Shown one piece after another: positions 46,317 to 64,000 of a stretch of 64,000 nt of DNA (positions within the stretch are counted from its first letter, which is position 1; the number at the start of each line of letters is the position of its first letter). Made by a program: the position numbers and the translations under genes. The notes beneath the pieces are model-generated. The model did not search any database and was not told where the DNA came from. It was given only the letters and a program-made list of their open reading frames with translations. This stretch comes from Elusimicrobiaceae bacterium (GTDB lineage: Bacteria > Elusimicrobiota > Elusimicrobia > Elusimicrobiales > Elusimicrobiaceae). The stretch is taken from the NCBI GenBank assembly GCA_017546175.1, contig JAFYXM010000007.1, positions 1 to 64,000 of the forward strand. The letters are read 5' to 3'.

Positions 46317-46325
46317 TTTTCTCTC

Positions 46326-48240: not shown

Positions 48241-48243
48241 AAA

Positions 48244-50450: not shown

Positions 50451-51499
50451 AAGATTCTCTCTTCGTATTCGTGGATTTGCTGCAGGGTGAAAGCCAGCAT
50501 CGGCTCCCCTTGATAAAAACGTTTGTACCAAGCGATAGTTTTAGCTACAGCTTCTTGGGCTGTGTAAGTAGGCACCCAACCTAATACTTGTTCTGCTTTG
50601 GTAATATCTAACATCAGTAAATTTGCTTCGTGCAAATCATCTTTTTTATGCACTTTTACCGAGCCGCGGCCATATTCTTTAACGGCCAGTTGAGCTACTT
50701 CAGCTACGGTAAGCACGCTTTCTGCGTTGGGACCTAAGTTAAACCCTTCGGCATATTTGCTTCCTTGCGTGTAGAGAAGGTGGCCTAAAAGTAAATAACC
50801 CGAAAGAGGCTCCAACACGTGCTGCCACGGGCGAGTGGCTACAGGGTTTCGGATTTCAATTTCTTCTCCGGCTTCAATAGCGCGTACACAATCGGGTATT
50901 AAGCGGTCCAAAGCCCAGTCTCCGCCTCCGATCACGTTTCCCGCGCGGGCAGTCGCCATGGCATAACCGTCTTTCAGGAAACTGCGACGGTAGGAAGAAG
51001 ACAAAATTTCTACACAACCCTTGGAAGAGGAGTACATATCATACCCACCCATAGGCTCGTCTTCTTTATAGCCGCGGTTTATTTCTTTGTTCTCGTAGCA
51101 TTTATCGGTAGTTACATTGACAAAGGCTTTTACGGAGGCTGTTTTTCTGGCGGCTTCCAATACGTTTAAACTGCCGATCACATTGGTTTGGTAAGTAAGC
51201 ACCGGCTCAGCATAGGATAAGCGCACCAAAGGTTGGGCTGCTAAGTGAAAAACAATTTCCGGTTGGAAATCTTGAAAAGTTTTGTTTAATTTTTCTGTGT
51301 CTAAAATATCACCAAATACATTGACGATACCGTCAGCAACTTGGGCAGCATCAAACAAAGAAGGTGTGGTGTTGGGCTCCAATGCATAACCACACACCTG
51401 CGCGCCTAATTCTTTGAGCCACAAAGTAAGCCAACTGCCCTTAAAGCCTGTATGCCCCGTGACCAATACTTTTTTACCTTTATAGGTGTTTTTCCACAT
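50435..51499 (-). CDS. rfbG: CDP-glucose 4,6-dehydratase
   Basis: 354 residues from the ATG at 51499, which is 2 bases after the rfbF stop and has GGGAG upstream. The NAD-binding motif is VLVTGHTGFKGSWLTLWL; HLAAQPLVRLSY, VNVTTDKCYEN and the catalytic YDMYSSSKGC (Tyr-x3-Lys) follow. ARAGNVIGGGDWALDRLIPD is a signature of this dehydratase. It makes CDP-4-keto-6-deoxy-D-glucose from CDP-glucose. Overlaps rfbH by 16 bases. Confidence 0.94.
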   Translation of the reverse strand: MWKNTYKGKKVLVTGHTGFKGSWLTLWLKELGAQVCGYALEPNTTPSLFDAAQVADGIVNVFGDILDTEKLNKTFQDFQPEIVFHLAAQPLVRLSYAEPVLTYQTNVIGSLNVLEAARKTASVKAFVNVTTDKCYENKEINRGYKEDEPMGGYDMYSSSKGCVEILSSSYRRSFLKDGYAMATARAGNVIGGGDWALDRLIPDCVRAIEAGEEIEIRNPVATRPWQHVLEPLSGYLLLGHLLYTQGSKYAEGFNLGPNAESVLTVAEVAQLAVKEYGRGSVKVHKKDDLHEANLLMLDITKAEQVLGWVPTYTAQEAVAKTIAWYKRFYQGEPMLAFTLQQIHEYEERILWKKN

Positions 51500-51501
51500 G
51501 C

Positions 51502-52281
51502 TTATTTCTCCCACTTTTTCCAAGGGGCTTTTTCTTGTTCCCAAAGTTCGGTTAAGTGTATTTTATCTTTTAGCGTATCCATGGGTTGCCAAAAGCCTTC
51601 ATGTTTGTAGGCGTGAAGTTGGCCGTCAGCGGCTAGTTTTTCCAAAGGGTCTCTTTCAAAGATAACACCGCTTCCTTCGGCAATATAATTCATTACCTCG
51701 GGTTGGCAGACAAAAAATCCGCCGTTAATCCAAGCACCGTCTCCCTTGGGTTTTTCAATAAAAGAAGTAATGGTATTTTGACCGTCAATGACCAAAGCAC
51801 CAAAACGTCCGGTAGGTTTAACAGCCGTCATGGTAATGAGTTTGCCAGATTTTTGGTGAGCATCAATTAAATCTTTAATATTCACATCGCTGACACCGTC
51901 CCCGTAAGTTAAAAGGAAAGGCTCATTTCCGATGTATTTGGACGCTTTTTTGATACGTCCTCCCGTCATGGTGTTTTGGCCTGTATAAAGCATGGTTACT
52001 TTCCAAGGTTCTTGGCGGGTTTTATGTACGGTGACGGAATTATCGGTCATGTCAACCGTGATATCGGAGTAACGATGATAATAATTGACAAAAAACTCTT
52101 TAATGATATGAGATTTATATCCGGTAAGAATAATAAAATCATTAAACCCGTAATGAGAATAAATCTTCATGATATGCCATAAAATGGGATACCCGCCGAT
52201 TTCTACCATCGGTTTGGGTTTCAAATTGGTTTCTTCGCTTAAACGAGAACCGAGTCCGCCTGCCAAAATCAGTACTTTCAT
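51502..52281 (-). CDS. rfbF: Glucose-1-phosphate cytidylyltransferase
   Basis: 259 residues. The nucleotidyltransferase motif LILAGGLGSRLSEETNLKPKPM begins at residue 4; LLTYGDGVSDVNI carries the metal-binding Asp; FIEKPKGDGAWINGGFFV follows. It makes CDP-glucose, the first committed step of CDP-deoxysugars. First gene of the nine-gene sugar operon, with an AGGAG ribosome site and a TATAAT (minus strand, 52324-52329) about 43 bases upstream. Confidence 0.94.
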   Translation of the reverse strand: MKVLILAGGLGSRLSEETNLKPKPMVEIGGYPILWHIMKIYSHYGFNDFIILTGYKSHIIKEFFVNYYHRYSDITVDMTDNSVTVHKTRQEPWKVTMLYTGQNTMTGGRIKKASKYIGNEPFLLTYGDGVSDVNIKDLIDAHQKSGKLITMTAVKPTGRFGALVIDGQNTITSFIEKPKGDGAWINGGFFVCQPEVMNYIAEGSGVIFERDPLEKLAADGQLHAYKHEGFWQPMDTLKDKIHLTELWEQEKAPWKKWEK

Positions 52282-52323
52282 TTTTATGCACTCCTAAAAA
52301 CTTAAAGCTTTTCCCATAGATTT

Positions 52324-52329
52324 ATTATA
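52324..52329 (-). promoter_or_regulatory. -10 of the sugar operon promoter
   Basis: Consensus TATAAT on the minus strand, 43 bases upstream of rfbF and overlapping the stop of the preceding gene. The -35 is weak, so read-through from the island is also possible. Confidence 0.45.
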
Positions 52330-53053
52330 GTATATTTTTGTTAAAAAACATTCCTATTTCATGATCGTAGCGGAGTCTAAAGCTTTTTGTTTTTTTTCTA
52401 TTGGTGAGGGAGAGAAACAGAGGGGTTTTTTCTTCCGCTGCTGTTTGAGGTGGCAAAACCTCTAAGTATCCTACAGTTCCTAACAGACCTTTTATTTTTT
52501 CCAAAGGAGTTCTTTCTCTGGCTTCCTCTTCAATAAAACCCAAAACAGTATTTCCTTCTTTTTTCATTTTTTTCCAATCAGCAAGCGTTTGGATCCTGCG
52601 TTGAGACAGCAAACTGATAAATGCCATTACGGGTTTAGAGAATTTGGGGAGAGCGTCTGCTTCCTCTTTCCAAAAAACAGGATATTTTTCTAAAGAACAG
52701 AGGTAATGGGCTAGATTCTCTTTTTCTGTTTTTTTCAAAAGGAATTGTCTTAATCTGTGCTTTGGAATTTTACTTTCTAAAGAAAGCAAACTCAAAAAGT
52801 CTTTTTCCGCTTGTTTTTCTCCACCCCACACAAGCACAGTTTGCCCTTGTTTGCATACTTGCCATAACATGTAACTGCGCCAAGCCTGCAAGATCCCCGC
52901 TTTGGAGGAGAGAAAGGAGAGACTCTCCTCCAACCGTAAATCAAAAATAGCTTCTTTGCCCGTTTGTCCAAACTCCTCTCGCTCGTTTTTTATAAATTCT
53001 AGGAGTTGGCATTTTGCTCTAAACAAGGATGCTTGTTCTTTCATTGTTATCAT
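52325..53053 (-). CDS. Degenerate DnaB-helicase-like protein lacking a P-loop
   Basis: 242 residues, start ATG at 53053 or 53044. The order of segments follows the DnaB C-terminal domain: a TVLVWGGEKQAEKDFLSLLS strand-helix in the place of the FSLEM motif, then IPKHRLRQFLLKKTEKENLAHYL, and a C-terminal end LFLSLTNRKKTKSFRLRYD recalling the KNRNG...L-x-F end of replicative helicases. There is no recognisable Walker A or B. It pairs with the tandem AAA+ gene upstream (16-base gap). The family call is by eye and could be wrong; a structural search would settle it. Confidence 0.4.
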   Translation of the reverse strand: MITMKEQASLFRAKCQLLEFIKNEREEFGQTGKEAIFDLRLEESLSFLSSKAGILQAWRSYMLWQVCKQGQTVLVWGGEKQAEKDFLSLLSLESKIPKHRLRQFLLKKTEKENLAHYLCSLEKYPVFWKEEADALPKFSKPVMAFISLLSQRRIQTLADWKKMKKEGNTVLGFIEEEARERTPLEKIKGLLGTVGYLEVLPPQTAAEEKTPLFLSLTNRKKTKSFRLRYDHEIGMFFNKNIL

Positions 53054-53069
53054 ACTTCTTTCTCCTTTT

Positions 53070-55061
53070 TTATCTGGGGCAAAAGCCGATTTGGCCGGTG
53101 GTATGTTGCGTTTTTACCTTTTGTTCGGCCTGCAAGAGTTCTTTTAGTTTTTCGGGTTGTTTGAGTACCCCCAAAATTTCGGCTTTATTTTTAACCAAAG
53201 CAAAATCTCCGGGGGTCAGCGCGGCTAAAGAGGCCACGTCTTGATTAGATACTTTTACTCCGAAAAAATGTTCAAAAGCCGTTTGTACCTGAGGCGTATT
53301 TAAAAACTCATACTTTACCTTAAAACTAAAACGGCGCAAACTGGCAGGGTCTAATCTGTTCATTAAATTGGTGGTACAGATAAAGGGATAGGGATGGCTC
53401 TCCATCCACGTCAGCATTTCGTTAACGCTGGACACTTCCCACGAGCGCTGGGCATATTTTCGGTCTTGCAAGAAGCTGTCCGCCTCGTCAAAAATCAGCA
53501 AGGCCTTATTTTCTTTGGCCTCTGCAAAAGCCCGGGCAATATTATGCTCTGTTTCTCCTACATAAGCACCAAGCAGGTCCGAGGCGCGTTTGTGCAGTAC
53601 TTTTAAGCCTAGTTCCTCCGCCAAATATCGCCCATAGGCCGACTTACCCGTGCCGGGAGCACCGTACAAACAAAGTGAAAAATTCAGCCGCCCCAATTTC
53701 TTTAACTGCTCTGACAAGGCCGCCAAATCTGTATCGGCATTGATAAGCAGAGGGTTAAACTTTTCGTTCTTCACCTCTTTCGTTTCCTCCTTTTTCTTTC
53801 TCTTAAACCCGTAATTAAGTGCCTGTTGCATAATTTCAATATGATTGCGCACGGTGTCTAAATCTCCGTTTACTATATGTGCCGCTTTGGCTGCACCGCT
53901 AATCATAGACGGAGGGACAGAAAACTCCTTGGCTAGCGCCATAGTTTGGCAGTAGGAATGAGGCAAGGAGTTTTCCTTTAAATGCTTTTGCCATATCTTG
54001 CGTTGCACTTCCACAGGAGGTTTTTTGAAATAAATAGCCAATGAAAAACGGCGAATAAATGCCGGGTCCATACGGTCAATGCGGTTAGTGGTCCAAATGA
54101 CCGGCACTTTGTTCTTCTCCAGCAAACGATTGATTTCCACCTTGTCACACTTGGTTTGGGAACTGGAAAACAAATCTTCTGCCTCGTCAAAAAGAAGGCA
54201 AGAGTCCGGAGCCTTTTTCAAAAAATCATTTTTAAGGTATAAGGATCGTAGGCGGTAGTTATCCTGAGATTCTCCCTCGTTAGTTTCCCCGACAACATAT
54301 AATTTTTTACCGGTTTCTTTAGCCAACATTTGTGCAAAACTGGTTTTGCCCGTTCCGGCCATACCATAGAGCAAGATATTAAACCCTTTTTGCCCTTGAT
54401 TGTTTTTTAATAAATTGACGGCAAAATCGGTCTCGGGAATATATTCAAAATCTTTGCTCCGTAAATTTCCACAAAGAGGACTTCCCATTAGCCAAGATTT
54501 TCTTTCTTCTTCATTTTCAAAAATACTTTCTAAAAAGTTAGAAATATTGCTTCCAACGCTATAGTCCTTATCAAAACGATCCCTTATTAGAAAAGAATAT
54601 CGGAGTAAACTGCTTTGAGGATTGAGTATTTTTTTCATGGCTCGTTCGGTAGTATTTGCTAGCTCTACACAATAATCAAGGGTTAAGTCGGAGTTGCAAA
54701 TTCTTCGACGAGAGAGATCTTTTAAGAATTTATTATTTTTCCATAAAAATGCTACCTCCAAAACAGCAATTTCTTCTGAAGATAAATTAAGAAAGTTCTT
54801 AAGAAACATAAGATTGAGGTAAAAAGGATTTTCCTCCGTCTCAGCAGGAATAATAGCCATTTGTTTTAATTTTTTTCTAAATTTCTTATAAACAGATTTC
54901 AAACGCCTGTTAGTACGTTCTCCTTTGCTAGAGTCTTTATAAAGTTGTAGTCTTTCACTCCAATCCATAAAATAATCCATACTGTCTTCACTTTCTATAA
55001 TCACATCTAACAGTCTATCCATGTAGAAAAATGCTCTTCTGTCTTCGTATGTGTATTTCAT
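53070..55061 (-). CDS. Tandem AAA+ ATPase (two active-looking modules)
   Basis: 663 residues. A helical N-terminal region (about 1-210) is unlike the AAA domains. Module 1 has Walker A GMAGTGKT (233-240), Walker B LLFDEAEDLF (289-298), sensor TTNRID and an Arg pair in PAFIRRFS. Module 2 has GAPGTGKS (467-474), LLIFDEADSF (521-530), CTTNLMNRLDP and SLRRFSFK. Both modules keep all catalytic residues, as in Cdc48- or SpoVK-type remodelling machines, but the protein is smaller. It starts with AAAAGGAGACATTACT and is preceded by a promoter with the island's operator. Partner and substrate are unknown. Confidence 0.85.
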   Translation of the reverse strand: MKYTYEDRRAFFYMDRLLDVIIESEDSMDYFMDWSERLQLYKDSSKGERTNRRLKSVYKKFRKKLKQMAIIPAETEENPFYLNLMFLKNFLNLSSEEIAVLEVAFLWKNNKFLKDLSRRRICNSDLTLDYCVELANTTERAMKKILNPQSSLLRYSFLIRDRFDKDYSVGSNISNFLESIFENEEERKSWLMGSPLCGNLRSKDFEYIPETDFAVNLLKNNQGQKGFNILLYGMAGTGKTSFAQMLAKETGKKLYVVGETNEGESQDNYRLRSLYLKNDFLKKAPDSCLLFDEAEDLFSSSQTKCDKVEINRLLEKNKVPVIWTTNRIDRMDPAFIRRFSLAIYFKKPPVEVQRKIWQKHLKENSLPHSYCQTMALAKEFSVPPSMISGAAKAAHIVNGDLDTVRNHIEIMQQALNYGFKRKKKEETKEVKNEKFNPLLINADTDLAALSEQLKKLGRLNFSLCLYGAPGTGKSAYGRYLAEELGLKVLHKRASDLLGAYVGETEHNIARAFAEAKENKALLIFDEADSFLQDRKYAQRSWEVSSVNEMLTWMESHPYPFICTTNLMNRLDPASLRRFSFKVKYEFLNTPQVQTAFEHFFGVKVSNQDVASLAALTPGDFALVKNKAEILGVLKQPEKLKELLQAEQKVKTQHTTGQIGFCPR

Positions 55062-55088
55062 AGTAATGTCTCCTTTTGCGTTAGATTA

Positions 55089-55116
55089 GATATAGTGTAA
55101 AACTTGCGTGCGACAA
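55089..55116 (-). promoter_or_regulatory. Promoter of the tandem AAA+ gene (inside operator site A)
   Basis: Minus strand TTGTCG (55111-55116) and TATATC (55089-55094) at 16-bp spacing. The -35 is one arm of the inverted repeat. Confidence 0.6.
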
Positions 55117-55129
55117 CATCTTGTCACAG
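55108..55129. promoter_or_regulatory. Operator site A (inverted repeat TGCGACAA-N4-TTGTCACA)
   Basis: GTGCGACAAC followed by ATCTTGTCACAG. The core CGACA-N6-TGTCA is shared with sites B and D. It sits in the short gap between the AAA+ start and the deiminase-like gene's stop. Confidence 0.65.
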
Positions 55130-55137
55130 TAAAAACT

Positions 55138-56058
55138 TTAAAATCGGAGTTTTTGAGAGAAGACCCATTTATACTTGTTCAGGGAAAAACTATACTCCCT
55201 TGTCAGCCGATACACCGCTCCCCCAGAATGAGAAAATGCACTGCAATCTACCGGCACTATGGGCTTTTTGGTGTACTCTTGGATAATGGTTAAAGCTCTC
55301 TTATCTTCCGGCGAGTTAAGCTGGGGTACAAAAACAGCACGGGAAGTTTCTAAAAAATTCACATAGCAACCGCCACTGAAACGGGTATGCTCCCGATTAG
55401 TAGTAAAACAAAGAAGGTGTACAATATCATCGTGATAGTCATCGTAATAGTTTAGATTTTTCATATAATCATAAAACATACCTCTGTCCTCTAAAAAAGA
55501 TCCCGTAGTTGTTCCCTCGTAATCTAATGAGCCCTCCATTAAAAAATTGCCTAAAAATTGCACATATTCACTCATCCTGCTATACGACAGAAAGTTTTGT
55601 TTAGGTATCCAAAAAACTCCTTCTACACCCAATGCTTGTTTTAACTCTTTTTCCACATATTCTTTTTTGGTGGGGTTAGATTTGGGGAAGATAGAACGCT
55701 TTTCAAGGCAAAAAGCATATTTTTTATCGGGTGTGATTACAATATTTCCGCCTTCTATACATACATCACAAAATTTAGCATGAGGGAATACTCCCCGAAT
55801 TTGGTTGCGAATAGCGGCTGCGAATTTAGCTTTATAATAAGAACCACGCAGGTCAAAGAAATGCTGATATAGTTCCCCTGTTTTTACGTTTTGCAAGGGG
55901 AAGAAATCGCGTACCCAAATATCCGGCAGCTCCAATGCACGTACCTCATGATACTGAGCAAGTTGAGGGTAAAATTTTTCAAAAAATCGTCTATGGTTTG
56001 GATATAATTTTTCCGTGTACCAAGTCGGCTTGGCAATATAGATTATTTCATTTGTCAT
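55138..56058 (-). CDS. Agmatine/peptidyl-arginine-deiminase-fold protein lacking the catalytic Cys
   Basis: 306 residues. The pentein fold landmarks are in order: PDIWVRDFFP (48-54), IEGGNIVI (from 101), the His-Asp segment DDYHDDIVHLL (His209), CYVNFLETSRAVFVPQ, and the last conserved block SHSGGAVYRLTREY. In active agmatine deiminases and bacterial PADs the last block reads GG-x-H-C-x-T; here the His-Cys pair is Tyr-Arg (Arg284), so the nucleophile is missing. The protein may bind a guanidino ligand without turning it over, or use another residue. It starts with AAAGGAGATCTT and is divergent from the WYL regulator. Confidence 0.75.
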   Translation of the reverse strand: MTNEIIYIAKPTWYTEKLYPNHRRFFEKFYPQLAQYHEVRALELPDIWVRDFFPLQNVKTGELYQHFFDLRGSYYKAKFAAAIRNQIRGVFPHAKFCDVCIEGGNIVITPDKKYAFCLEKRSIFPKSNPTKKEYVEKELKQALGVEGVFWIPKQNFLSYSRMSEYVQFLGNFLMEGSLDYEGTTTGSFLEDRGMFYDYMKNLNYYDDYHDDIVHLLCFTTNREHTRFSGGCYVNFLETSRAVFVPQLNSPEDKRALTIIQEYTKKPIVPVDCSAFSHSGGAVYRLTREYSFSLNKYKWVFSQKLRF

Positions 56059-56077
56059 AAGATCTCCTTTATGTCTT

Positions 56078-56132
56078 TCTTTATCCTAACAATATGGCAC
56101 GACAGCCCCGTGTCGGTCTTTTGTGCTATGAT
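56078..56132. promoter_or_regulatory. Divergent promoters and operator site B
   Basis: The inverted repeat CGACA-N6-TGTCG (56100-56104, 56111-56115) lies between the deiminase-like and WYL genes. On the minus strand CTGTCG (56100-56105) and TAAAGA (56078-56083) are 16 bp apart. On the plus strand TGCTATGAT is an extended -10 (hexamer 56127-56132) with its -35 region inside the repeat. A bound repressor could block both. Confidence 0.6.
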
Positions 56133-56159
56133 ATAGGTATCTTTGAAATGGGGTTTATT

Positions 56160-57077
56160 ATGCAAAAAGAAATGCAAAATAAAGTAACACGGCTTTTACT
56201 AGAACTCAATGAACTGGATAAAGGGGAAATTTGCCTAACTGATTTCGCAGCGGAATTAGGCGTATCCACCCGCACTTTACAACGCGATATGCGTACGATA
56301 CAAGAGGCGGACTTTCCGCTTTATTGCCCCACACCCGGTACATATGCATTTATGGAGGGGTTTTCATTGGAGAAAATGAAACTTTCTGATAAGGAAGCCA
56401 GCATGCTCGTGTTTATGAGTGAAATTGCCAACTCTTTGGGAAACAATTTCGGCATGTCCTTTGATATGCTGAAAAAACGCCTGTTGGGAACAACAGAGGA
56501 AAGTCCGTTTTTTGTTAAATTTTCTACCGGAGAGGAATACCCCGATACGCCGATTACGCGGGAACTTTTTGCCTGTATCCGTGCCCGCGAGAAAGTGACC
56601 GTTTGTTATGAAGGCGGCAATAGGGCCTGCTACCCCGTGCGTCCTCTAAAAATGCTGTGGGTGGACGGGTTTTGGTATTTGTTGGCGCTTACCGAAGATG
56701 ACAAGTTGCTCAAATTCCGCTTGGAAAAAATATCTTCCGCAACCCCTTTAGGCAAGTTTTTCAAATACACCGCCGATATTGAAAAAATTATCCGTGAAGG
56801 CACCAATATTTGGTTTGATAAAGAGCGGAATTTGGAAGTGAAAATGGAAGTCTCCCCCGTGGTAGCCAAGTATTTCAAAGCGCGCAGTTATTTCCCATTG
56901 CAAAAGATTAAAGAGGAACTGCCCGACGGACGCCTGATTATCGCTTGCCGTGCCTCTAACACCGAAGAAATTATTCACACCATTTTCCATTGGATACCGG
57001 AAATCAAGGTACTTTCCCCCAAAGAACTGGGCGAAGAAGTAAAAAATAAATTAAAAAATTATTTGGAGGGAAAGTGA
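56160..57077 (+). CDS. WYL-domain transcriptional regulator
   Basis: 305 residues from the ATG at 56160; earlier in-frame ATGs at 56094 and 56148 lie in or near the promoter. The N-terminal helix-turn-helix is of the DeoR/HTH_11 type: LTDFAAELGVSTRTLQRDM. The WYL domain follows with YPVRPLKMLWVDGFWYLLAL and LLKFRLEKISSA. A C-terminal extension (KMEVSPVVAKYFKARSYF onward) matches the WCX domain. WYL regulators respond to nucleic-acid-type ligands and commonly control phage-defence or DNA-damage loci (BrxR, CapW, PafBC). The operator repeats in this island, including one in its own promoter, make it the probable regulator. Confidence 0.88.
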   Translation: MQKEMQNKVTRLLLELNELDKGEICLTDFAAELGVSTRTLQRDMRTIQEADFPLYCPTPGTYAFMEGFSLEKMKLSDKEASMLVFMSEIANSLGNNFGMSFDMLKKRLLGTTEESPFFVKFSTGEEYPDTPITRELFACIRAREKVTVCYEGGNRACYPVRPLKMLWVDGFWYLLALTEDDKLLKFRLEKISSATPLGKFFKYTADIEKIIREGTNIWFDKERNLEVKMEVSPVVAKYFKARSYFPLQKIKEELPDGRLIIACRASNTEEIIHTIFHWIPEIKVLSPKELGEEVKNKLKNYLEGK

Positions 57078-57078
57078 G

Positions 57079-57273
57079 ATGGAAATTAAAGATAAATTCT
57101 ATTTAGAGTCTGATGAATATGCAGAATTATGTGTAGGACAAGAGTTAATGAATTTACTAAAAGGAGCAGCTGTCTTTTTCTCCTTAAAGAAAAATCAAAA
57201 AAACATTGATTTTATTATAAAAGATTCCAATAACCGCTTAACCTGTCAATATGTTGTCGCACCTCCCTGTTAG
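57079..57273 (+). CDS. Small protein of unknown function, possibly truncated
   Basis: 64 residues, starting one base after the WYL stop with GGAGGG upstream, so it is translated with the regulator. The N-terminal 50 residues look like an ordinary small alpha/beta protein (EYAELCVGQELMNLL, FFSLKKNQKN). The last dozen codons (LTCQYVVAPPC) run through operator-like site C and into the terminator stem, so the original C-terminus may have been replaced by the junction. No family recognised. Confidence 0.5.
   Translation: MEIKDKFYLESDEYAELCVGQELMNLLKGAAVFFSLKKNQKNIDFIIKDSNNRLTCQYVVAPPC
57243..57262. promoter_or_regulatory. Site C: degenerate copy of the operator sequence
   Basis: Minus strand GTGCGACAACAT followed by ATTGACAG. 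It matches site A except for one substitution and a 2-base deletion in the second arm, which breaks the symmetry. It lies in the end of the small gene after the WYL regulator. Confidence 0.45.
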
Positions 57274-57292
57274 AATAATGGGGAGGTGTTTT
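57260..57292 (+). terminator. Terminator of the WYL operon
   Basis: CACCTCCC / GGGAGGTG (57260-57267, 57281-57288) with a 13-nt loop, followed by TTTTATTA. Confidence 0.75.
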
Positions 57293-57346
57293 ATTATGAA
57301 AATCAAAAGACTTTCTTTTTAAGGCAGATGTTGCAGAGAATTATGT

Positions 57347-58225
57347 TTAATCCGCTTTTGCAGAAGTTTTTTTCTTCTTTTTGGATCGTTCAATCAAGTG
57401 TCCTAATATTTCTTGTAGTTCATCATCTGAAAAATTTTCTTTTTGAGTTGCTAAAGAAATTTTTAGATTTCCTTCAAGAATTCTTGTTTCTACTTTTTTT
57501 GCTTCATTTGCATCAAATTCCTTATCAAAAGCTTTATAATTTGCGGCCTTTCTTGGCTTTTTTCTATATAAAGTGATTTTGTTGTCGGTTAGTATGTATC
57601 CTTTGAAATAATGCTCAAAGCCATATTGCCAAAAGGCCATATCAATTATTTTCATTTTAGGGTAAGAAAGATTAGGATGAGATTTGAATTTAAACTTTTC
57701 CAAATCTTTTTCAGTCAACTTTTGATAAATTTCTAGGATCTTTTCAAAACCTTTATCATTAAAAGAAATATTTTTTTCCGTTTCTATTTTGTACCCCTCT
57801 TTAAAAAACCTATCAAAAGCCGGCACGCAACCAAAAATACCCATTAAAATTTTGGTAATCAATGTTTCCGTAGATTCTTTAAAAGGGTCAATTTTTGTAA
57901 TAATCTTTTTTGCTTCTTCTATTTTGTCCCAACTAGGATTTTTAAACAAATCATTAAACTTATTCTCTTCAAATAATTCTTTTATAATGGGAATAAATAT
58001 TTTGTAGTCATATTGAAGTAAGAAAGAAGACCCGCGGTACATTCCCCAACTGGCCAAATAAAAAGCTAAGTTTAAAGCGGCTAAATCTATGGTTGCATCG
58101 TCATTTAAATTTTCCTTGTTGTTTAGAAAAAAGCTATAACAATGTTCCCACGATAAAAAACGGTGATTGTTTTCCGCTAACTTGTAAAATTTATCAGCTT
58201 TATCTTTTATAAAATTGTTTGTCAT
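57347..58225 (-). CDS. Conserved-looking hypothetical protein of the island operon
   Basis: 292 residues, mostly helical, Lys-rich, cytoplasmic. A distinctive segment reads LNLAFYLASWGMYRGSSFLL (residues about 50-70); IDMAFWQYGFEHYFKGY lies near 210. The C-terminus is a Lys-rich tail (RSKKKKKTSAKAD). I have a weak impression that proteins with the ASWGM-RGSS motif occur in accessory and defence loci, but I cannot name a function. Last gene of the island's long minus-strand operon, 11 bases behind the nuclease gene. Confidence 0.6.
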   Translation of the reverse strand: MTNNFIKDKADKFYKLAENNHRFLSWEHCYSFFLNNKENLNDDATIDLAALNLAFYLASWGMYRGSSFLLQYDYKIFIPIIKELFEENKFNDLFKNPSWDKIEEAKKIITKIDPFKESTETLITKILMGIFGCVPAFDRFFKEGYKIETEKNISFNDKGFEKILEIYQKLTEKDLEKFKFKSHPNLSYPKMKIIDMAFWQYGFEHYFKGYILTDNKITLYRKKPRKAANYKAFDKEFDANEAKKVETRILEGNLKISLATQKENFSDDELQEILGHLIERSKKKKKTSAKAD

Positions 58226-58236
58226 GTTTTACTCTC

Positions 58237-59700
58237 CTATCTTACTGCATCTCTCAGGGCTTCTACCAGTTTGACCATGGCCCAAGTGTCTTGCTTGCAG
58301 TAGGCTAGTAAATCTTTGCGCAGCTGCTCCAAATGTTCGGGTGGTAATTCCTGCGCGTACAAAATATCAAAAGCGTTCATCGCGTCCCCGCCATTGGCTA
58401 CGGGCATACCCTCGTAGGTTAGCTCCGGCACAACGGCAGGAAGCACTTTTTTAATCGTGGTACGGCATTTCATGGCGGGCAATAAATAGTCATGCCCGAA
58501 TGGTTCACGCGTATCTTCAAAGCGGTTTATCATGTTAAGCAGGCGGTCTTTTTCTTCTTCCGTCAACGGTAAATCATGGGCCATTTCCTTGATTCTGCTT
58601 TTTTCAAAACCGGCATTGTGGGCGATAATCGTCCCTTTGTCTCCAATGTACTCAAGCAAGGCTTTGGCACATGCAAGGCGGGGGTCGTCCTTGCCGGTGG
58701 AAAGATATTCGTAATGCTCATATTCCGCATTTGGTTTTCGTTGAACGTGGAGCGAAAACTGAAAGGGAATCTGCTGATACGGCTTAGAATTTTTCCACAA
58801 AGGCACGACAGATTGGGTCGTTTCAAAATCTAAATAATAGAGCGGATACTCCAAGCGGTTGAGCCATTGAGCGATACCCTCAGGGTTGATATACGGCTGG
58901 CCTGTGCGGTAAATATTTACCCAACGGTTGTGATTAGGGTTATCTAAACTGTCGGGCGGTATATCTTGCACGCGGGGCATACCGTCTTTGATGTATTGGC
59001 GCGCTTTTGCACTTCTAAACAGGTTAAAAACGGAATCTTCCGGTATATCACGCCAACAATAGTCGTGCGCTTCACACTCGGCGCAACCGGTTTTGTCCAG
59101 TTCCACTTCCGGCTCGTCTGCGGAAAGCATGGCATTGATGTTTTCTAAATCTTGCTCAATGTCCGCCAGCGGAGTAAGCTCGGGGTCGGCTAAAGTAAGC
59201 AAGAAAAATTGGTTTAAATCCGGCTCGTCGGTGGTTTGGTAATAATCTGTGTTGATGTGCATGAGATAACAACTTTGCACCGCCACTCCGCACTTACTCA
59301 GCACATAGTGCTGTATAGAAATATCGTCCCAATAAATAGGGTCTATGGTGTTGCCACTGCTTTTTACTTCGATAATGTTCCAGCCGTTCGGTACTTTTTC
59401 TAAAATGTCCACAAACACCAAAATATCGTTATAAATAAAGGCAGCCTCGTAGATGTACGGAACGCCCTTTTTCATGAGTTCTTGCGTGCGCAAGACGGCC
59501 TGTTGCGGGTTTTGATAGCCGTTTTCTACCCAAACTCCGTTGGGAAAGCGTTTCCACGCTAATTGGCCGATTTTTTGCCCTGCCGCCATACGCTTTTGTG
59601 CTGCTTCTCCCAAAGGGGAAAGAGCCTCTTTTTTATTACGCGTAAGCCACAGTTTTTTAGGGCAACTTTTGTATTTTGTATATTGTGATTTGGAAAACAT
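58237..59700 (-). CDS. Cas4-like nuclease fused to a DEDD exonuclease-like domain (DUF2779 family)
   Basis: 487 residues from the ATG at 59700. The N-terminal half reads like a Cas4/AddB-type Fe-S PD-(D/E)XK nuclease. The first Cys is in KYKSCPKKLWL; the nuclease core is LVFVDILEKVPNGWNIIEVKSS (Asp, Glu, Lys); three more Cys are in GCAECEAHDYCW. The C-terminal half is the DUF2779 domain with an RNase-H-fold exonuclease look: LYYLDFETTQSVVP (Asp-x-Glu), IIAHNAGFEKSRI and CKQDTWAMVKLVEAL. It would degrade or trim DNA ends. It overlaps nothing but lies 4 bases after the ankyrin gene. Confidence 0.8.
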   Translation of the reverse strand: MFSKSQYTKYKSCPKKLWLTRNKKEALSPLGEAAQKRMAAGQKIGQLAWKRFPNGVWVENGYQNPQQAVLRTQELMKKGVPYIYEAAFIYNDILVFVDILEKVPNGWNIIEVKSSGNTIDPIYWDDISIQHYVLSKCGVAVQSCYLMHINTDYYQTTDEPDLNQFFLLTLADPELTPLADIEQDLENINAMLSADEPEVELDKTGCAECEAHDYCWRDIPEDSVFNLFRSAKARQYIKDGMPRVQDIPPDSLDNPNHNRWVNIYRTGQPYINPEGIAQWLNRLEYPLYYLDFETTQSVVPLWKNSKPYQQIPFQFSLHVQRKPNAEYEHYEYLSTGKDDPRLACAKALLEYIGDKGTIIAHNAGFEKSRIKEMAHDLPLTEEEKDRLLNMINRFEDTREPFGHDYLLPAMKCRTTIKKVLPAVVPELTYEGMPVANGGDAMNAFDILYAQELPPEHLEQLRKDLLAYCKQDTWAMVKLVEALRDAVR

Positions 59701-59704
59701 AAAA

Positions 59705-60184
59705 TTATTCCTTTTCTCCAACATTTTTAGCTGCATTTTTTAAAAGATGAATTATTTCAGCACATGTTTCAGGTTTAATAATCCCAAATTTCACATGAGC
59801 GCTTTTTTGCCCAATTAACGCTAGCGATATCGCATCATCACCGAAATGATCTTTGGCTGTCACATCCGCTCCGGAGTCAACCAGCAATTTGACCTTTTCT
59901 AGATTTTGAATTAAACTTGCTTTCATTAAAGGCGTGCCTCCACAATGATCTCTTGCATTTATGTCGGCTCCTGCTTCAATAAGCATTCGAACGATCTTTG
60001 CACTATTGGCTAGCATCAGGGCTGATTCTCCAAAGAATTCTTCCTTTGCATTTACATCTGCACCAGAGTCAATAAGTTGCCTGACCTTATCAATTAACTC
60101 ATCATATCTTTTAAATTTTTCGGATTCTGTAGCAGATAGATTAACAAGTTTTTCTTCTTCCTGAATAGCATCTATTAGTGTCAT
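59705..60184 (-). CDS. Ankyrin-repeat protein
   Basis: 159 residues with three ankyrin repeats in the middle: LIDSGADVNAKEEFFGESAL, LIEAGADINARDHCGGTPLM and LVDSGADVTAKDHFGDDAI. The N-terminal 35 residues and C-terminal 35 are helical caps. No signal peptide, so it is cytoplasmic and probably mediates a protein-protein contact within the island's system. It sits directly before the nuclease gene (4-base gap), so the nuclease is a candidate partner. Confidence 0.85.
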   Translation of the reverse strand: MTLIDAIQEEEKLVNLSATESEKFKRYDELIDKVRQLIDSGADVNAKEEFFGESALMLANSAKIVRMLIEAGADINARDHCGGTPLMKASLIQNLEKVKLLVDSGADVTAKDHFGDDAISLALIGQKSAHVKFGIIKPETCAEIIHLLKNAAKNVGEKE

Positions 60185-60260
60185 TATTTTTTCCTATTTC
60201 TCGTCATTGTATGACAATTATATGATTTATATATTTATTTCACAGTTATTCTAACATTTT

Positions 60261-60415
60261 CTATTGGAAATCCTTCATTGATGAAATTTCTTTACCACAT
60301 TCCCATAAACCTTTTGCCGAAATATCTGCCTTGTCTGTCCATATTATTCTCCTTTTATAATCTTTCGTTATACAATTAAATATTTTTGAATCAAAATTGT
60401 TAATTGTCCTAAATC
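60261..60415 (-). pseudogene. Out-of-frame C-terminal tail of the upstream hypothetical gene
   Basis: In a second frame overlapping the end of the 60368-60820 gene, the sequence reads like a genuine protein end: NFDSKIFNCITKDYKRRIIW, then TDKADISAKGLWECGK and EISSMKDFQ before a TAG at 60261. Hydrophilicity and codon use look natural. A one- or two-base frameshift near 60400 would join it to the upstream gene, giving a product about 45 residues longer. The rest of the 60185-60367 gap holds nothing else. Confidence 0.4.
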
Positions 60416-60820
60416 TAAAATTTTATTATCTAATTTATCAGCAACTTCTTTACGAAAATTTTCATAATTATTAAACAAAACTAAATCATTAGACTTATCT
60501 ATTCTTTTTTCTCCATTATGATAATTAGAGTATGCTCTATCTAAAGATTTTGATAATACATTTAAATCTTCTCCATATTCTAAAAAATGTTCTATCATTT
60601 TCTTAGGAATCGATTTATTATTAGGTTTGAATTTTGTATCTTGAATCCAATCGCAAAAATCTAACATTTCTTGAATCCAATGATTAACATTTTGATTTTT
60701 AGGATTAGCCATAATTTTACAAGCATGACTATAAAATTGACTACTTTCTTTTCCAGAAATACGATTTTCTACTTCTTTTTTATTGCGCGCAAAAGAATAA
60801 ATTAATTTAGTCCACTTCAT
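60368..60820 (-). CDS. Hypothetical protein, probably frameshifted near its end
   Basis: 150 residues from the ATG at 60820 (an earlier TTG at 60859 is less likely). Helical, charged, with NVNHWIQEMLDFCDWIQDTK in the middle and a DNKILDLGQLTILIQKYLIV end. No family is recognised. The apparent stop at 60368 may result from a frameshift, because the next frame continues as a credible tail. Part of the island's minus-strand operon; the gap of 183 bases to the ankyrin gene is the only large gap in it. Confidence 0.5.
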   Translation of the reverse strand: MKWTKLIYSFARNKKEVENRISGKESSQFYSHACKIMANPKNQNVNHWIQEMLDFCDWIQDTKFKPNNKSIPKKMIEHFLEYGEDLNVLSKSLDRAYSNYHNGEKRIDKSNDLVLFNNYENFRKEVADKLDNKILDLGQLTILIQKYLIV

Positions 60821-60879
60821 ATCAAAACCCTGATAGATATTACCTATCCTCACTAACAAAATATGTTTTATGTGCTAAA

Positions 60880-61323
60880 TCAGCCATTATATCCTCTATT
60901 CATCCCTTGTTCTGTATCCCAACAAGAATCGAAAATTAATTCACATGGTTTGTTTTGTAAGTTAAATCTACTTTTTATCAGATCTAACAAAACATTAACT
61001 TCTTTTGCCCAAGAGCCAACTAATACTTCAAAAGTTTTAGATTTGGTATTATAAAAAACTCTACCTCTTGGATAATCCATATAATCGCCTTTCATACTAT
61101 TTTCAAGCCAAACTTTAGAATGGAGTTTTCTTGTAGTCTTCTTATTATCGAAAGAAGGAGCATCTTCAACCGGAATACTATTTACCAGAAACAGTTTTTT
61201 ATTTTTAAAATCATAAAATAAACTTCCTACTTCTGCAAAATCTTTTTTATGGTTTTGAGACATAAAATCCATCATGTCTTTTCTTTCTTCCAATTTTAAA
61301 ATTCTTGTCCATTTATTTGTCAT
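60880..61323 (-). CDS. Hypothetical protein of the island operon
   Basis: 147 residues, overlapping the DnaB-like gene by 4 bases. A mixed alpha/beta protein with KLHSKVWLENSMKGDYMDYP and GRVFYNTKSKTFEVLVGSWA segments. The second resembles a beta hairpin ending in a small helix. It ends KPCELIFDSCWDTEQGMNRG. No signal peptide. I cannot assign a family; an association with nucleic acid is only suggested by its neighbours. Confidence 0.6.
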   Translation of the reverse strand: MTNKWTRILKLEERKDMMDFMSQNHKKDFAEVGSLFYDFKNKKLFLVNSIPVEDAPSFDNKKTTRKLHSKVWLENSMKGDYMDYPRGRVFYNTKSKTFEVLVGSWAKEVNVLLDLIKSRFNLQNKPCELIFDSCWDTEQGMNRGYNG

Positions 61324-62516
61324 AATAAAACCTCTTGGAACAACAGATATTTGGGATAAAAATTAAATGCTATCTCAGCCACTTGTGTACTTGGATAGTT
61401 GGCTAAAACAAACACTCCTTTCTTTTCCCCTTGGTCTTCTTGGAGATTAATAAAAATAATATTATCCGATTGGATATCGCCCATATATTTCTCAAGCCAA
61501 TCAGCAGATTTAACAAAATCTTCCGGTAAATCGTTGTCTATTCTATCCATTTGACTTAAAAGAAGCACGGGAACATCAAGAGTTTTCGCCATTTGCTTCA
61601 ACAAAGATACAATTTTAGCCAATTCCTCCTTTCGTAGGAGTTTGGTGGGCCCTTGGCCATGCCTAATAAGTTGCAAGTAATCAATGATAATCAATTTCAG
61701 TTCTTTGCCCTGCTTTTGTAAGTTTTCAGCTAGTTCTTTGGAACGGGAGAATATCTCTCCCGCAAGAATACCAACCGAGTCATCAATTAAAAAGGGACTT
61801 TTCGCCAATTTTTGCATCTCTCGCATGACCTTTTTATGCTCTTGAGGATTTAAAGAGCCGTTTATCAATTTATTAATCTCCACTCGTGCAGATATAGCAA
61901 GTAATTTATTAAAAATAGCCTCTCTTGGTAATTCTAGCGAGAACAATGCTGTTGCCAACCCACCTTGGACGTATACATGGTGTAGTATATTAAGAGCGAA
62001 AGAAGTTTTTCCCTTAAAGGGACGACTGGCCAAAAGGGTGACTTCTCCTTTCTTTAAACCACCTGTTATCTTATTTATTTGCTCAAAACCAGTGATAATG
62101 GAATCAGTTTTCCCCTTAGTATTTGCAAAGGATTTTTCTTCTTTATCTTCCAATACAGGCTTTTTAACCTCTTCTTTTATTTTGGTATATTGGCATAAAT
62201 TAAACATCCACCAACCATTTTTCCTTTTAATGGTCTGAAGTACGGTAGAGGAATCAGCCATCATTTCGCTCATCTTTCCAAGAAAAAGTAAAATTTCCAT
62301 TTGGCTTGGACAATGAGTGAAATACGTGCTGTATTTTCCGGAAAGCAGATTGCAATACTTTCTTTCGCTTTTTTCCAAAACTTCACCGGAGAACAACCAT
62401 AAATCTACCGATTTGTCTTCCAGACAAAATTGATGTATTTTGGTTGCTAAATCTATGGGGTTGGAATTATAATTGTTTTTTCTTGTATGAAAAGCTGTTA
62501 TTGTATTGTATTCCAT
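61320..62516 (-). CDS. DnaB-like replicative-helicase-fold ATPase with an unrelated N-terminus
   Basis: 398 residues. The C-terminal part (from about 135) is a RecA-like domain of the DnaB type: TGFEQINKITGGLKKGEVTL, a modified Walker A ASRPFKGKTS (163-172; usual GGRPGMGKT), LATALFSLELPREAI, LLAISARVEINKL and Walker B LKLIIIDYLQLI. The normal DnaB N-terminal domain is missing; instead there are about 130 residues with no recognised fold. This argues against a replicative role. Probably a phage- or defence-related DnaB relative. It neighbours two unknown genes and shares the operon with a nuclease. Confidence 0.78.
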   Translation of the reverse strand: MEYNTITAFHTRKNNYNSNPIDLATKIHQFCLEDKSVDLWLFSGEVLEKSERKYCNLLSGKYSTYFTHCPSQMEILLFLGKMSEMMADSSTVLQTIKRKNGWWMFNLCQYTKIKEEVKKPVLEDKEEKSFANTKGKTDSIITGFEQINKITGGLKKGEVTLLASRPFKGKTSFALNILHHVYVQGGLATALFSLELPREAIFNKLLAISARVEINKLINGSLNPQEHKKVMREMQKLAKSPFLIDDSVGILAGEIFSRSKELAENLQKQGKELKLIIIDYLQLIRHGQGPTKLLRKEELAKIVSLLKQMAKTLDVPVLLLSQMDRIDNDLPEDFVKSADWLEKYMGDIQSDNIIFINLQEDQGEKKGVFVLANYPSTQVAEIAFNFYPKYLLFQEVLL

Positions 62517-62528
62517 ACTTCTCTCCTA

Positions 62529-62762
62529 CTATTCATAATCCTTCATATCATTAACTTTGTTGCCTTGTTTGTCATAAACATCTACTAAAGAGAAAACAAT
62601 TTTCATAGGCAATACATGATTTTGATTGGTACCTGTTAATCTTACCTCTCTATCATTTACTTTCTTTATTGTATATTCTCCACCTTCCGAATCCACTACT
62701 TTACCGATATTATCCCAACTAAAACCTGCCTTAACTTTTAATTCATTTTTGTTTGTTTTCAT
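62529..62762 (-). CDS. Small protein of unknown function, first in the island operon
   Basis: 77 residues, beta-rich in appearance (GGEYTIKKVNDREVRLTGTN, LPMKIVFSLVDVYDKQG). It starts 8 bases after a strong hairpin and has no Shine-Dalgarno. It is 12 bases upstream of the DnaB-like gene. It resembles a small barrel domain such as an SH3 or OB-like module, but this is only an impression. Confidence 0.55.
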   Translation of the reverse strand: MKTNKNELKVKAGFSWDNIGKVVDSEGGEYTIKKVNDREVRLTGTNQNHVLPMKIVFSLVDVYDKQGNKVNDMKDYE

Positions 62763-62769
62763 ATATTCT

Positions 62770-62799
62770 TAATGCCCCGAGGCAAACCTCGGGGCATTT
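62770..62799. terminator. Strong hairpin in the leader of the island operon
   Basis: TGCCCCGAGG / CCTCGGGGCA with a CAAA loop (62771-62780, 62785-62794). The T5 tract is on the plus strand, so it terminates plus-strand transcription. On the minus strand it lies between the site D promoter and the first gene and could act as an attenuator or block a ribosome site. Confidence 0.6.
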
Positions 62800-62821
62800 T
62801 TCCTCTATTTTTTAAATAAAG

Positions 62822-62869
62822 AGCCACAGCAAGACGGACATTTACAGCCGCATATTATAGAATAAACCA
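62822..62869 (-). other. Short Cys-rich reading frame in the operon leader
   Basis: One minus-strand frame between the site D promoter and the hairpin reads CGCKCPSCCGSLFKK before a stop. It has no start codon in frame. It may be the 3' remnant of a metal-binding protein gene, followed by that gene's hairpin, or chance. Confidence 0.25.
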
Positions 62870-62881
62870 TTGGTGCGACAA
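62854..62881 (-). promoter_or_regulatory. Promoter of the island's long minus-strand operon (in site D)
   Basis: Minus strand TTGTCG (62876-62881) and a perfect TATAAT (62854-62859) at 16-bp spacing, the same geometry as in sites A and B. Confidence 0.7.
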
Positions 62882-62894
62882 CGTATTGTCACAG
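62873..62894. promoter_or_regulatory. Operator site D (inverted repeat TGCGACAA-N4-TTGTCACA)
   Basis: GTGCGACAAC followed by GTATTGTCACAG, differing from site A at only two central positions. It lies between the divergent island operon and the choloylglycine hydrolase gene. Confidence 0.7.
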
Positions 62895-62914
62895 AAATCT
62901 ATCTAATCTAAAAT
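62886..62914 (+). promoter_or_regulatory. Plus-strand promoter for the choloylglycine hydrolase gene
   Basis: TTGTCA (62886-62891), the other arm of site D, and TAAAAT (62909-62914) at 17-bp spacing. Transcription would begin near 62921, giving an 80-base leader. Confidence 0.5.
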
Positions 62915-62961
62915 CAGACATTCCCAAAAAGTTTTTTTTCTTTCATACTAAGTGCAGGGGG

Positions 62962-63000
62962 AAGAGCGAAAACACTATATTTACCCGCTCTTGAAAAGAG
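62962..63000 (+). promoter_or_regulatory. Alternative leader hairpins near the ribosome site of the choloylglycine hydrolase gene
   Basis: CGCTCTT (62986-62992) can pair with the upstream AAGAGCG (62962-62968). Its CTCTT part can instead pair with AAGAG (62996-63000), which overlaps the ribosome-binding AAAGAGG. The two folds exclude each other; only the second hides the ribosome site. Confidence 0.35.
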
Positions 63001-63002
63001 GT

Positions 63003-64000
63003 ATGAAAAAACTAACAGCCTTAATGGCAGCAGTAACATTTACTGCTACGGCAGTTTCTCCGGCTTCAGCGTGTACAGGTATTTCTTTTATCGCCAAAGA
63101 CGGCACCCGTATCCAAGCTCGCACGATTGAGTGGAGCGGATATGATTTAAAAGCAAAGTTGGCGGTTTGGCCGCGCGGCGTGAAAAAAACATCTTATACG
63201 CCCGACGGAAAAAACGGCCTGAGCTGGACTACCCGTTACGGCGTGGTGGGGGCTACCACGGTGATGGACGAGTTTATCACAGAAGGCATTAACGAAAAGG
63301 GGCTTTCTGCGGGTATTTTCTTTTTTTCTCACTATGGAAGTTTGGCTCCGTATAATCCTAAAAAAGCCAAACAATCGGTCAGCGATGCAGAGCTTGTGCC
63401 TTGGATATTGACTAACTTTGCAACGGTAGATGAGGTATTAAAACATCTTAAAAAGATAGATGTTATTCCCATCGCCAAACCGGATAAAAATGGCAACTAT
63501 AATACTGGCCATTGGCGTATTGCGGATGCCAGTGGGCGGAGTGTGGTGTTGGAAATTACCAATAAAGGCGAGCGCAAAATTTATGAAAATAAAGTAGGGG
63601 TGCTGACGAATTCTCCGAGTTTTGCATGGCATTTGAGTAATTTAAACAATTACATTAATCTCATGCCGGGTACTGTACCGGAAAAAACATTCGGGGGTGC
63701 TAATTTGTTTTCGCTGGGATCCGGTTCGTCACTTTTGGGCATACCGGGAGATTTTACGCCTCCGTCTCGGTTTGTACGGGCCTTCTTTTGGTTGCACGGC
63801 TCTCGCACGCCAGAGGATAAATATGAGGCCGTTACACAAGCATTTCATATTTTAAATGCGTTTGATATTCCGATAGGGGCAGAGTTTGCGCCGGATCAGC
63901 CGATTCCGAATATCCCGAGTGCCACTCAAGTAACGTGTGTCAGTGATAATACTCATCCGACCTTTTACTACCGTACGATGTATAACTCTCAAATCAGAAA
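63003..64000 (+). CDS. Secreted choloylglycine hydrolase / penicillin V acylase family protein (3' end outside the window)
   Basis: The frame is open to the window edge (332 codons; the family is about 340-360). A signal peptide MKKLTALMAAVTFT... ends SPASA, leaving Cys24 as the N-terminal nucleophile (CTGISFIAKDGTR). Ntn-hydrolase motifs follow: ARTIEW, GINEKGLSAG, VLTNSPSFAWHLSNLNNYI and PSRFVRAFFW. These fit the Gram-negative, exported branch, which cleaves bile salts, penicillin V or acyl-homoserine lactones; the substrate cannot be decided here. A gut habitat makes bile salts plausible. A GAGG lies unusually close to the start codon. Confidence 0.88.
   Translation, partial: MKKLTALMAAVTFTATAVSPASACTGISFIAKDGTRIQARTIEWSGYDLKAKLAVWPRGVKKTSYTPDGKNGLSWTTRYGVVGATTVMDEFITEGINEKGLSAGIFFFSHYGSLAPYNPKKAKQSVSDAELVPWILTNFATVDEVLKHLKKIDVIPIAKPDKNGNYNTGHWRIADASGRSVVLEITNKGERKIYENKVGVLTNSPSFAWHLSNLNNYINLMPGTVPEKTFGGANLFSLGSGSSLLGIPGDFTPPSRFVRAFFWLHGSRTPEDKYEAVTQAFHILNAFDIPIGAEFAPDQPIPNIPSATQVTCVSDNTHPTFYYRTMYNSQIR

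Follow-up and report, generated by a model that had tools for sequence, protein, structure and literature searches.

Operator sites of the island

The window considered here (the whole 64,000-nucleotide stretch, positions 1 to 64,000 of contig JAFYXM010000007.1, assembly GCA_017546175.1, of an Elusimicrobiaceae bacterium; unprefixed positions refer to it) carries towards its right end an island of genes headed by short palindromes, termed sites A, B and D, together with a gene for a WYL transcription factor (305 amino acids (aa), HTH_11-WYL-WCX; 56160..57077, + strand), the candidate regulator. The palindromes are variants of CGACA-N6-TGTCG and are trailed by a −10 hexamer at a fixed distance, an arrangement in which the WYL protein would probably serve as an activator. 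In the following, C-numbers denote contigs of the same genome (1.34 Mb, the “own genome”), L-numbers fetched loci and G-numbers genomes; the comparison set comprised 90 related genomes, and the reversed motif served as control.

Site A (55109..55128, − strand; TGCGACAACATCTTGTCACA) is predicted to drive an AAA+ unit, and its −10 hexamer, TACACT (55094..55099, − strand), starts 11 nt after TGTCG. The same distance separates site D (62874..62893, − strand; TGCGACAACGTATTGTCACA), predicted to drive an operon with a DnaB-like helicase and a nuclease, from its −10, TATTCT (62859..62864, − strand). Site B (56098..56117, core CGACAGCCCCGTGTCG at 56100-56115, strandless) is common to the divergent genes for the WYL protein and a peptidyl-arginine deiminase (PAD)-like protein, and has a −10 at 11 nt on either side: TAGGAT (56083..56088, − strand) toward the PAD-like gene and TATGAT (56127..56132, + strand) toward the WYL gene. 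An earlier description of this DNA, made from the letters alone (the sequence-only reading), had recognized A and D as near-identical inverted repeats and had placed a shared operator ahead of the AAA+ unit, the PAD-like gene, the WYL gene and the DnaB/nuclease operon, and both assignments stand. It had also given B the same core and spacing. The core is indeed exact, but 6 of 16 fixed positions depart from the 20-bp A/D form, B is missed by a scan allowing three mismatches, and the 16-nt spacing to a −10 is not conserved.

The perfect A/D form, TGYGACAANNNNTTGTCRCA, occurs in the own genome at A and D only, and with up to three mismatches at 18 places versus 9 for the control. Site B is set between the PAD-like and WYL genes, where relatives have strong sites: upstream of their WYL genes lies CGACA-N6-TGTCG with varied flanks (e.g., ACGACACCCCCCTGTCGC and GCGACAACACCTTGTCGC), in L132 in the gap between the WYL and PAD-like genes, and in L036, L039 and L046 between the WYL gene and a 155-aa gene located ahead of the PAD-like gene. 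Since these flanks vary, the working operator is taken to be CGACA-N6-TGTCG, which is exact in B and one base off in A and in D, with the central six bases variable across sites. Judged by their sequences, A, B and D are one operator family. The shorter GACA-N6-TGTC core, which the sequence-only reading had made its title motif, is not specific alone (14 genome places versus 12 for the control) and was rejected as a genome signature; swapped arms, TGTCG-N6-CGACA with up to three mismatches, were rejected as well, being found at 110 places and thus less often than in shuffled sequence (145). A further candidate, the degenerate site C (57242..57261, + strand), has three mismatches to the A/D form, TAGAAT at +11 (i.e., 11 nt after TGTCG) and no clear target; it is weak because about 0.9 matches with three mismatches are expected by chance in the window. 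It lies, beside a terminator-like hairpin, within the 3′-terminal part of an open reading frame (ORF) of 64 aa (57079-57273) that begins right after the WYL gene.

Promoters with a fixed −10 and no usual −35

When the window is scanned for the operator plus TAnnnT 11 nt after TGTCG, allowing one mismatch, exactly A, both directions of B, and D are returned; 0.03 matches are expected, and four were reached in 0 of 100 shuffles. Across the 90 genomes, the exact operator with its −10 at 11 nt has 119 matches (60 forward, 59 reverse) in 34 genomes, four of them in the own genome, against a single match for the control. The spacing of exactly 16 bp proposed by the sequence-only reading fares far worse, with 21 matches in 16 genomes, 4 for the control and none in the own genome. 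At B, a −10 at 16 nt on the left would, from the sequence, leave almost no leader ahead of the PAD-like ribosome-binding site.

The preference for 11 nt also emerges from sites collected by the operator alone. Among 73 distinct sides of such sites that face a gene start no more than 120 bp away, TAnnnT stands at 11 in 53, at 13 in 14 and at 16 in 8. For 100 sites with 193 distinct sides, it is found at 11 in 97 of the 127 that have a gene within 300 bp versus 16 of the 66 that have none; this count includes the sides whose nearest gene lies 120-300 bp away, which belong neither to the 73 sides nor to a group of 52 sides that is considered below. Taking one side per target gene family (n = 57, some possibly spurious, as genes were called mechanically as the longest ORFs with little overlap), 40 have the hexamer at offset 11 and any other offset reaches at most 7. 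The −10 was not part of the query that fetched loci L001-L211; in these and the window, TAnnnT accompanies 74 of the 78 distinct exact-core sites at 11 (22 of them on both sides, the others on one), and at 16 it is seen on some side of 15 sites. These figures bear on a scarcely credible alternative, namely that the palindromes serve in recombination or as attachment sites and bound gene cassettes. Palindromes do stand at module ends in several genomes, and the modules are patchy across relatives; however, the constant 11-nt distance of the −10, kept at 74 of the 78 sites, and the closeness to start codons are promoter features, and the central six bases vary. The −10 phasing led to the rejection of the recombination-site reading.

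With the −10 at 11 nt, the position of the −35 hexamer coincides with the operator centre, which speaks against the proposal that the palindrome arm itself is the −35. The best likeness to TTGACA at spacings of 16-18 averages 1.62 of 6 in 97 promoters versus 2.50 (sd 0.09) in shuffled sequence, a deficit that is explained partly by the fixed bases of the operator. Hence, these are promoters without a −35 of the usual kind. A TG ahead of the −10, present in 43 of the 97, is not decisive.

A + strand promoter had been postulated at site D. An ordinary sigma-70-like match is present (TTGTCA-17-TAAAAT, 62886-62914), overlapping the site and preceding a choloylglycine-hydrolase family gene (63003-63998), but it does not obey the +11 rule. 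WYL binding at D could block this promoter while activating the opposite direction. On the + strand, a 12-bp hairpin, strong and followed by a T-tail, separates the D promoter from the first operon gene (62771-62798), and no + strand gene is seen before it. Rfam at gathering thresholds has no match in window positions 52000-64000 or in L129, L012 and L128.

Predicted regulon and candidate regulator

All predicted targets in the island other than the WYL gene lie on the − strand. Site A precedes a 663-aa AAA+ protein (two AAA stretches; 53070..55061), followed by a 242-aa protein without a Pfam match (52325..53053), and site B precedes the PAD_porph protein (55138..56058). The operon behind site D begins with a 77-aa ORF (62529..62762) and continues with the DnaB_C-like helicase (61320..62516), two genes without a Pfam match (60880..61323 and 60368..60859), an ankyrin-repeat protein (59705..60184), a DUF2779/Cas4-like nuclease (58237..59736) and a last gene, again without a Pfam match (57347..58225). 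PADLOC finds no complete defence system here, only related domains: the AAA+ protein resembles IetA (2.6e-35) and the DUF2779 protein Cas4 (3.1e-11). Elsewhere in the window, 44535-52281 looks by eye like a cluster for making nucleotide sugars, with genes for a sugar nucleotidyltransferase, a dehydratase, an aminotransferase-fold enzyme, a thiamine-diphosphate enzyme, an aldolase and an aldehyde dehydrogenase.

The expectation that a genome-wide scan would confine the sites to the island is contradicted by others at C4:40285, C5:171868 and C5:175249. The first fronts a C5 cytosine methylase (−10 TATACT), the second is flanked by an ankyrin gene and a DUF6088/AbiEii pair with TATTCT and TATGTT at +11, and the third fronts sbcD-sbcC; beside it lies a GHKL-like ATPase gene (L012:9695-11154, named by eye), which appears split into two overlapping frames. 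A further exact match is at C10:96984. In relatives, TAnnnT stands at +11 on the side facing HsdM (L148), RlaP (L155), further AAA+ units (L150, L153, L160 and L162, by likeness), a P-loop kinase-like protein (L157, where a divergent macro-domain gene is without a −10) and an AddB-like protein (L167), the latter named by its likeness to L035:12419-15094 (PDDEXK_1). In L035 itself, CATAAT instead of TAnnnT faces the AddB/AddA-like genes at +11, and the AddB-like family therefore rests on L167. The predicted regulon is thus a mosaic of putative defence and repair modules, some within the island and others outside it on the chromosome. A LexA box or LexA-SOS regulon was considered and rejected, as no operator lies before lexA or recA of the own genome by eye, nor do the genome-wide matches include one.

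The sequence-only reading had pointed to the WYL protein as the regulator, and it remains the best candidate. Pfam recognizes WCX (2.5e-12), WYL (3.7e-8) and HTH_11 (3.5e-5; 24 bits, slightly below the cut-off of 25), residues W172-Y173-L174 are invariant in nine sequences, and the protein belongs to the wHTH-WYL-WCX architecture. Orthologues with at least 57% identity are found in 19 of the 90 genomes, in G037 as a contig-end fragment only and in G015 with a match that breaks at residue 241. RCGACAN6TGTCGY is present in all 19 of these genomes versus 13 of the 71 others (Fisher p 2.4e-11, which is only a guide, since the identity cut-off was chosen after the data had been seen and the genomes are related), and the excess of the bare operator over the control sits in the former (53 versus 8; other 71 genomes, 25 versus 49). 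Some WYL homologue at E ≤ 1e-10 is encoded in 30 of the 34 genomes with the full operator and −10. Moreover, in 18 of 19 orthologous loci the 300 bp upstream of the WYL gene contain CGAC-N8-GTCG, as they do in 6 of 19 more distant loci, including one from an Endomicrobium, whereas CGAC with N7 or N9 spacing, or the reversed form, occurs in none of these 38 upstream regions (of 40 relative loci, L200 and L207 were omitted for want of upstream sequence). The 40 WYL relatives in named genomes include 36 of Elusimicrobia type, mostly from rumen and gut metagenome assemblies, and one from Sulfurimonas at 30% identity; in viral contigs, 24 stretches fit a pattern, none of which was confirmed as a WYL relative.

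A second WYL protein is encoded in the own genome (L129, C10:54001-64000; 308 aa, 41% identical), between a Cas9-like protein (1185 aa) and an RtcB-like one, both named by eye, with an RlaP-like gene farther on. The same locus holds two variant operators, CGACAGCGTATGGTCG and CGACCTACTGTTGTCG, whose starts are 46 bp apart, each with an outward TAnnnT at +11. Another palindrome, CGACAAACGTTTGTCG, with TAnnnT at +11 on both sides, is found in G024:C39, G025:C9, G043:C2, G063:C6 (one base pair off) and G076:C4, no more than a few kb from less closely related WYL homologues (38-42%), and this proximity suggests a second regulator-operator pair.

A probable WYL activator and its known relatives

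A profile search of PDB sequences with the WYL protein retrieves DriD (1e-9), PafC (5.6e-7) and PafBC (1.6e-6), but neither BrxR nor CapW at E ≤ 1, placing the protein closer to DriD/PafBC by sequence. The promoters point the same way, in that a TGTC half-site keeps a constant distance from TAnnnT and the −35 is poor. In the putative recognition helix, R38 and R42 are invariant in the nine sequences and align, in a weak stretch (7.5 bits), with arginines of DriD; their spacing of four residues is that of R44 and R48, the two arginines reported for the PafB recognition helix (PMC6789036). R187, a residue considered with regard to possible ssDNA (single-stranded DNA) binding by the WYL domain, is invariant, too.

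Fixed −10 phasing, the lack of a −35 and the likeness to DriD/PafBC together lead us to regard the WYL protein as an activator. We infer that it probably is one of the DriD/PafBC type, acting on CGACA-N6-TGTCG promoters without a −35 in response to a signal that is itself probably ssDNA. The protein would bind the palindrome, presumably as a homodimer, with the −35 position at the centre of the operator and the TAnnnT hexamer exactly 11 nt after TGTCG. Since such promoters have no −35 of their own, RNA polymerase would need the bound WYL protein (sigma adaptation), and since the operator is symmetric, it could drive divergent genes, as at site B. The ssDNA would presumably arise from DNA damage or phage infection.

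A repressor, as the sequence-only reading had assumed, appears unlikely. A WYL protein of the BrxR/CapW type would occupy the promoters, silence the island and let go upon encountering ssDNA, and several features are compatible with this: at defence islands, WYL regulators are known as repressors, the operator covers the −35 region, and the ordinary + strand promoter overlaps site D. The fold scores are close as well. The predicted structure (mean predicted local distance difference test, pLDDT, 76.9; predicted template modelling score, pTM, 0.37) was compared with chains ranked by Foldseek, and BrxR (Z 11.8; root-mean-square deviation (rmsd) 10.8, 222 residues aligned), CapW (11.5; 10.6, 212) and PafBC (11.5; 14.8, 247) come so close behind DriD (13.9; 5.7, 185, and 12.5; 13.8, 250) that the fold does not separate the WYL families. 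However, a repressor has no need for a −10 at exactly 11 nt or for promoters without a −35, both of which fit a DriD/PafBC-type activator better, and the sequence profile does not retrieve BrxR or CapW.

Besides these fold scores, a number of observations weigh against activation by the WYL protein through this operator: the 13 operator-bearing genomes without a close orthologue and the post-hoc cut-off mentioned above; the orthologue of G021 (77%, L168), which is without an exact operator within 300 bp upstream; K190, which stands where DriD has its second WYL-domain arginine; and TAnnnT at 11 in 19 of the 52 sides without a gene within 300 bp. The bare operator RCGACAN6TGTCGY has 78 matches over the 90 genomes versus 57 for the control, and with one mismatch and a shorter core the own genome has 28 versus 14, so that weak sites are indistinguishable from chance. 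The sbcD-facing side of C5:175249 has TTTAAT instead of TAnnnT at +11, making sbcD-sbcC the weakest member of the regulon. Finally, G008, G023, G035 and G038 have the operator with its −10 and no WYL homologue at E ≤ 1e-10.

The last observation would be expected if some other regulator bound the sites and the WYL gene were just one target among several, which we consider highly improbable. An HTH+TPR protein shares some of the islands and was examined in this role; it was rejected, as it occurs in only 11 of the 90 genomes and is absent from the own genome. Furthermore, two features speak against another regulator: 18 of 19 orthologous loci have the operator ahead of the WYL gene, and the CGAC half-site is the one used by DriD.

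WYL regulators have so far been described as repressors at phage-defence loci or as activators of genotoxic-stress genes (PMC10693628). Here, a promoter architecture of the activator type fronts mainly putative defence and repair modules. If activation by the WYL protein is correct, this would join the two branches; the TGTC-to-TAnnnT distance of PafBC would recur in a distant phylum, there combined with a palindrome; and damage-linked defence genes could be listed by means of a DNA signature that is almost free of noise (119 versus 1). Gut bacteria of a little-studied phylum appear to turn on dispersed antiviral and DNA-repair genes via one promoter design, which matches that of DNA-damage-sensing activators in quite different bacteria; no study of WYL regulation in Elusimicrobiota was found among the titles examined. 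A broader view, to which we lend slightly less than even credence, is that Elusimicrobiota possess a LexA-independent “defence SOS”, in which a homodimeric, ssDNA-sensing WYL activator induces immunity and repair modules via sigma adaptation, with CGACA-N6-TGTCG-N11-TAnnnT as a plug-in code. Any mobile cassette equipped with this code, be it restriction-modification, AbiE, AAA+, Cas4-like nuclease, SbcCD or AddB-like, would then join one regulon wherever it has landed, and anti-phage defence would be turned on by WYL activation instead of derepression.

Among the known systems, BrxR and CapW resemble the proposed regulator as WYL regulators of phage-defence operons, of which BrxR binds inverted repeats and CapW responds to ssDNA. 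Both differ in being repressors and in not being retrieved by the sequence profile at E ≤ 1, and the repeats of BrxR have 11-bp arms and a 5-bp gap and lie downstream of the predicted −10. SiwR of Mycobacterium smegmatis is a homodimeric WYL activator, which acts under genotoxic stress from a 19-bp imperfect palindrome upstream of the −10, but primarily on one operon, whereas a multi-site regulon is predicted here.

PafBC, which serves RecA-independent promoters of mycobacteria, recognizes the motif TGTCGG-N10-TA-N3-T (PMC8151990) and hence has the same distance from TGTC to TAnnnT; it activates by sigma adaptation with ssDNA bound at its WYL domains (PMC11804915). PafBC differs in being a heterodimer whose motif is no palindrome; our locus has a single WYL gene instead of two adjacent ones, and a palindromic operator. 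DriD of Caulobacter crescentus is the nearest solved relative by sequence and has the same HTH-WYL-WCX organization. Its consensus, ATACGAC(X)7GTCGTAT, consists of CGAC and GTCG half-sites at a fixed distance from the −10 and with the −35 at the site centre; it activates promoters with a poor −35, its own promoter is bidirectional, and ssDNA at the WYL domain activates it (PMC12340889). The two differ in the spacing between CGAC and GTCG (N7 in DriD, absent from all 38 upstream regions; N8 here), in their sequences (19-21% identity in structure alignments), and in that the regulator proposed here is patchy and island-borne and has many putative defence targets.

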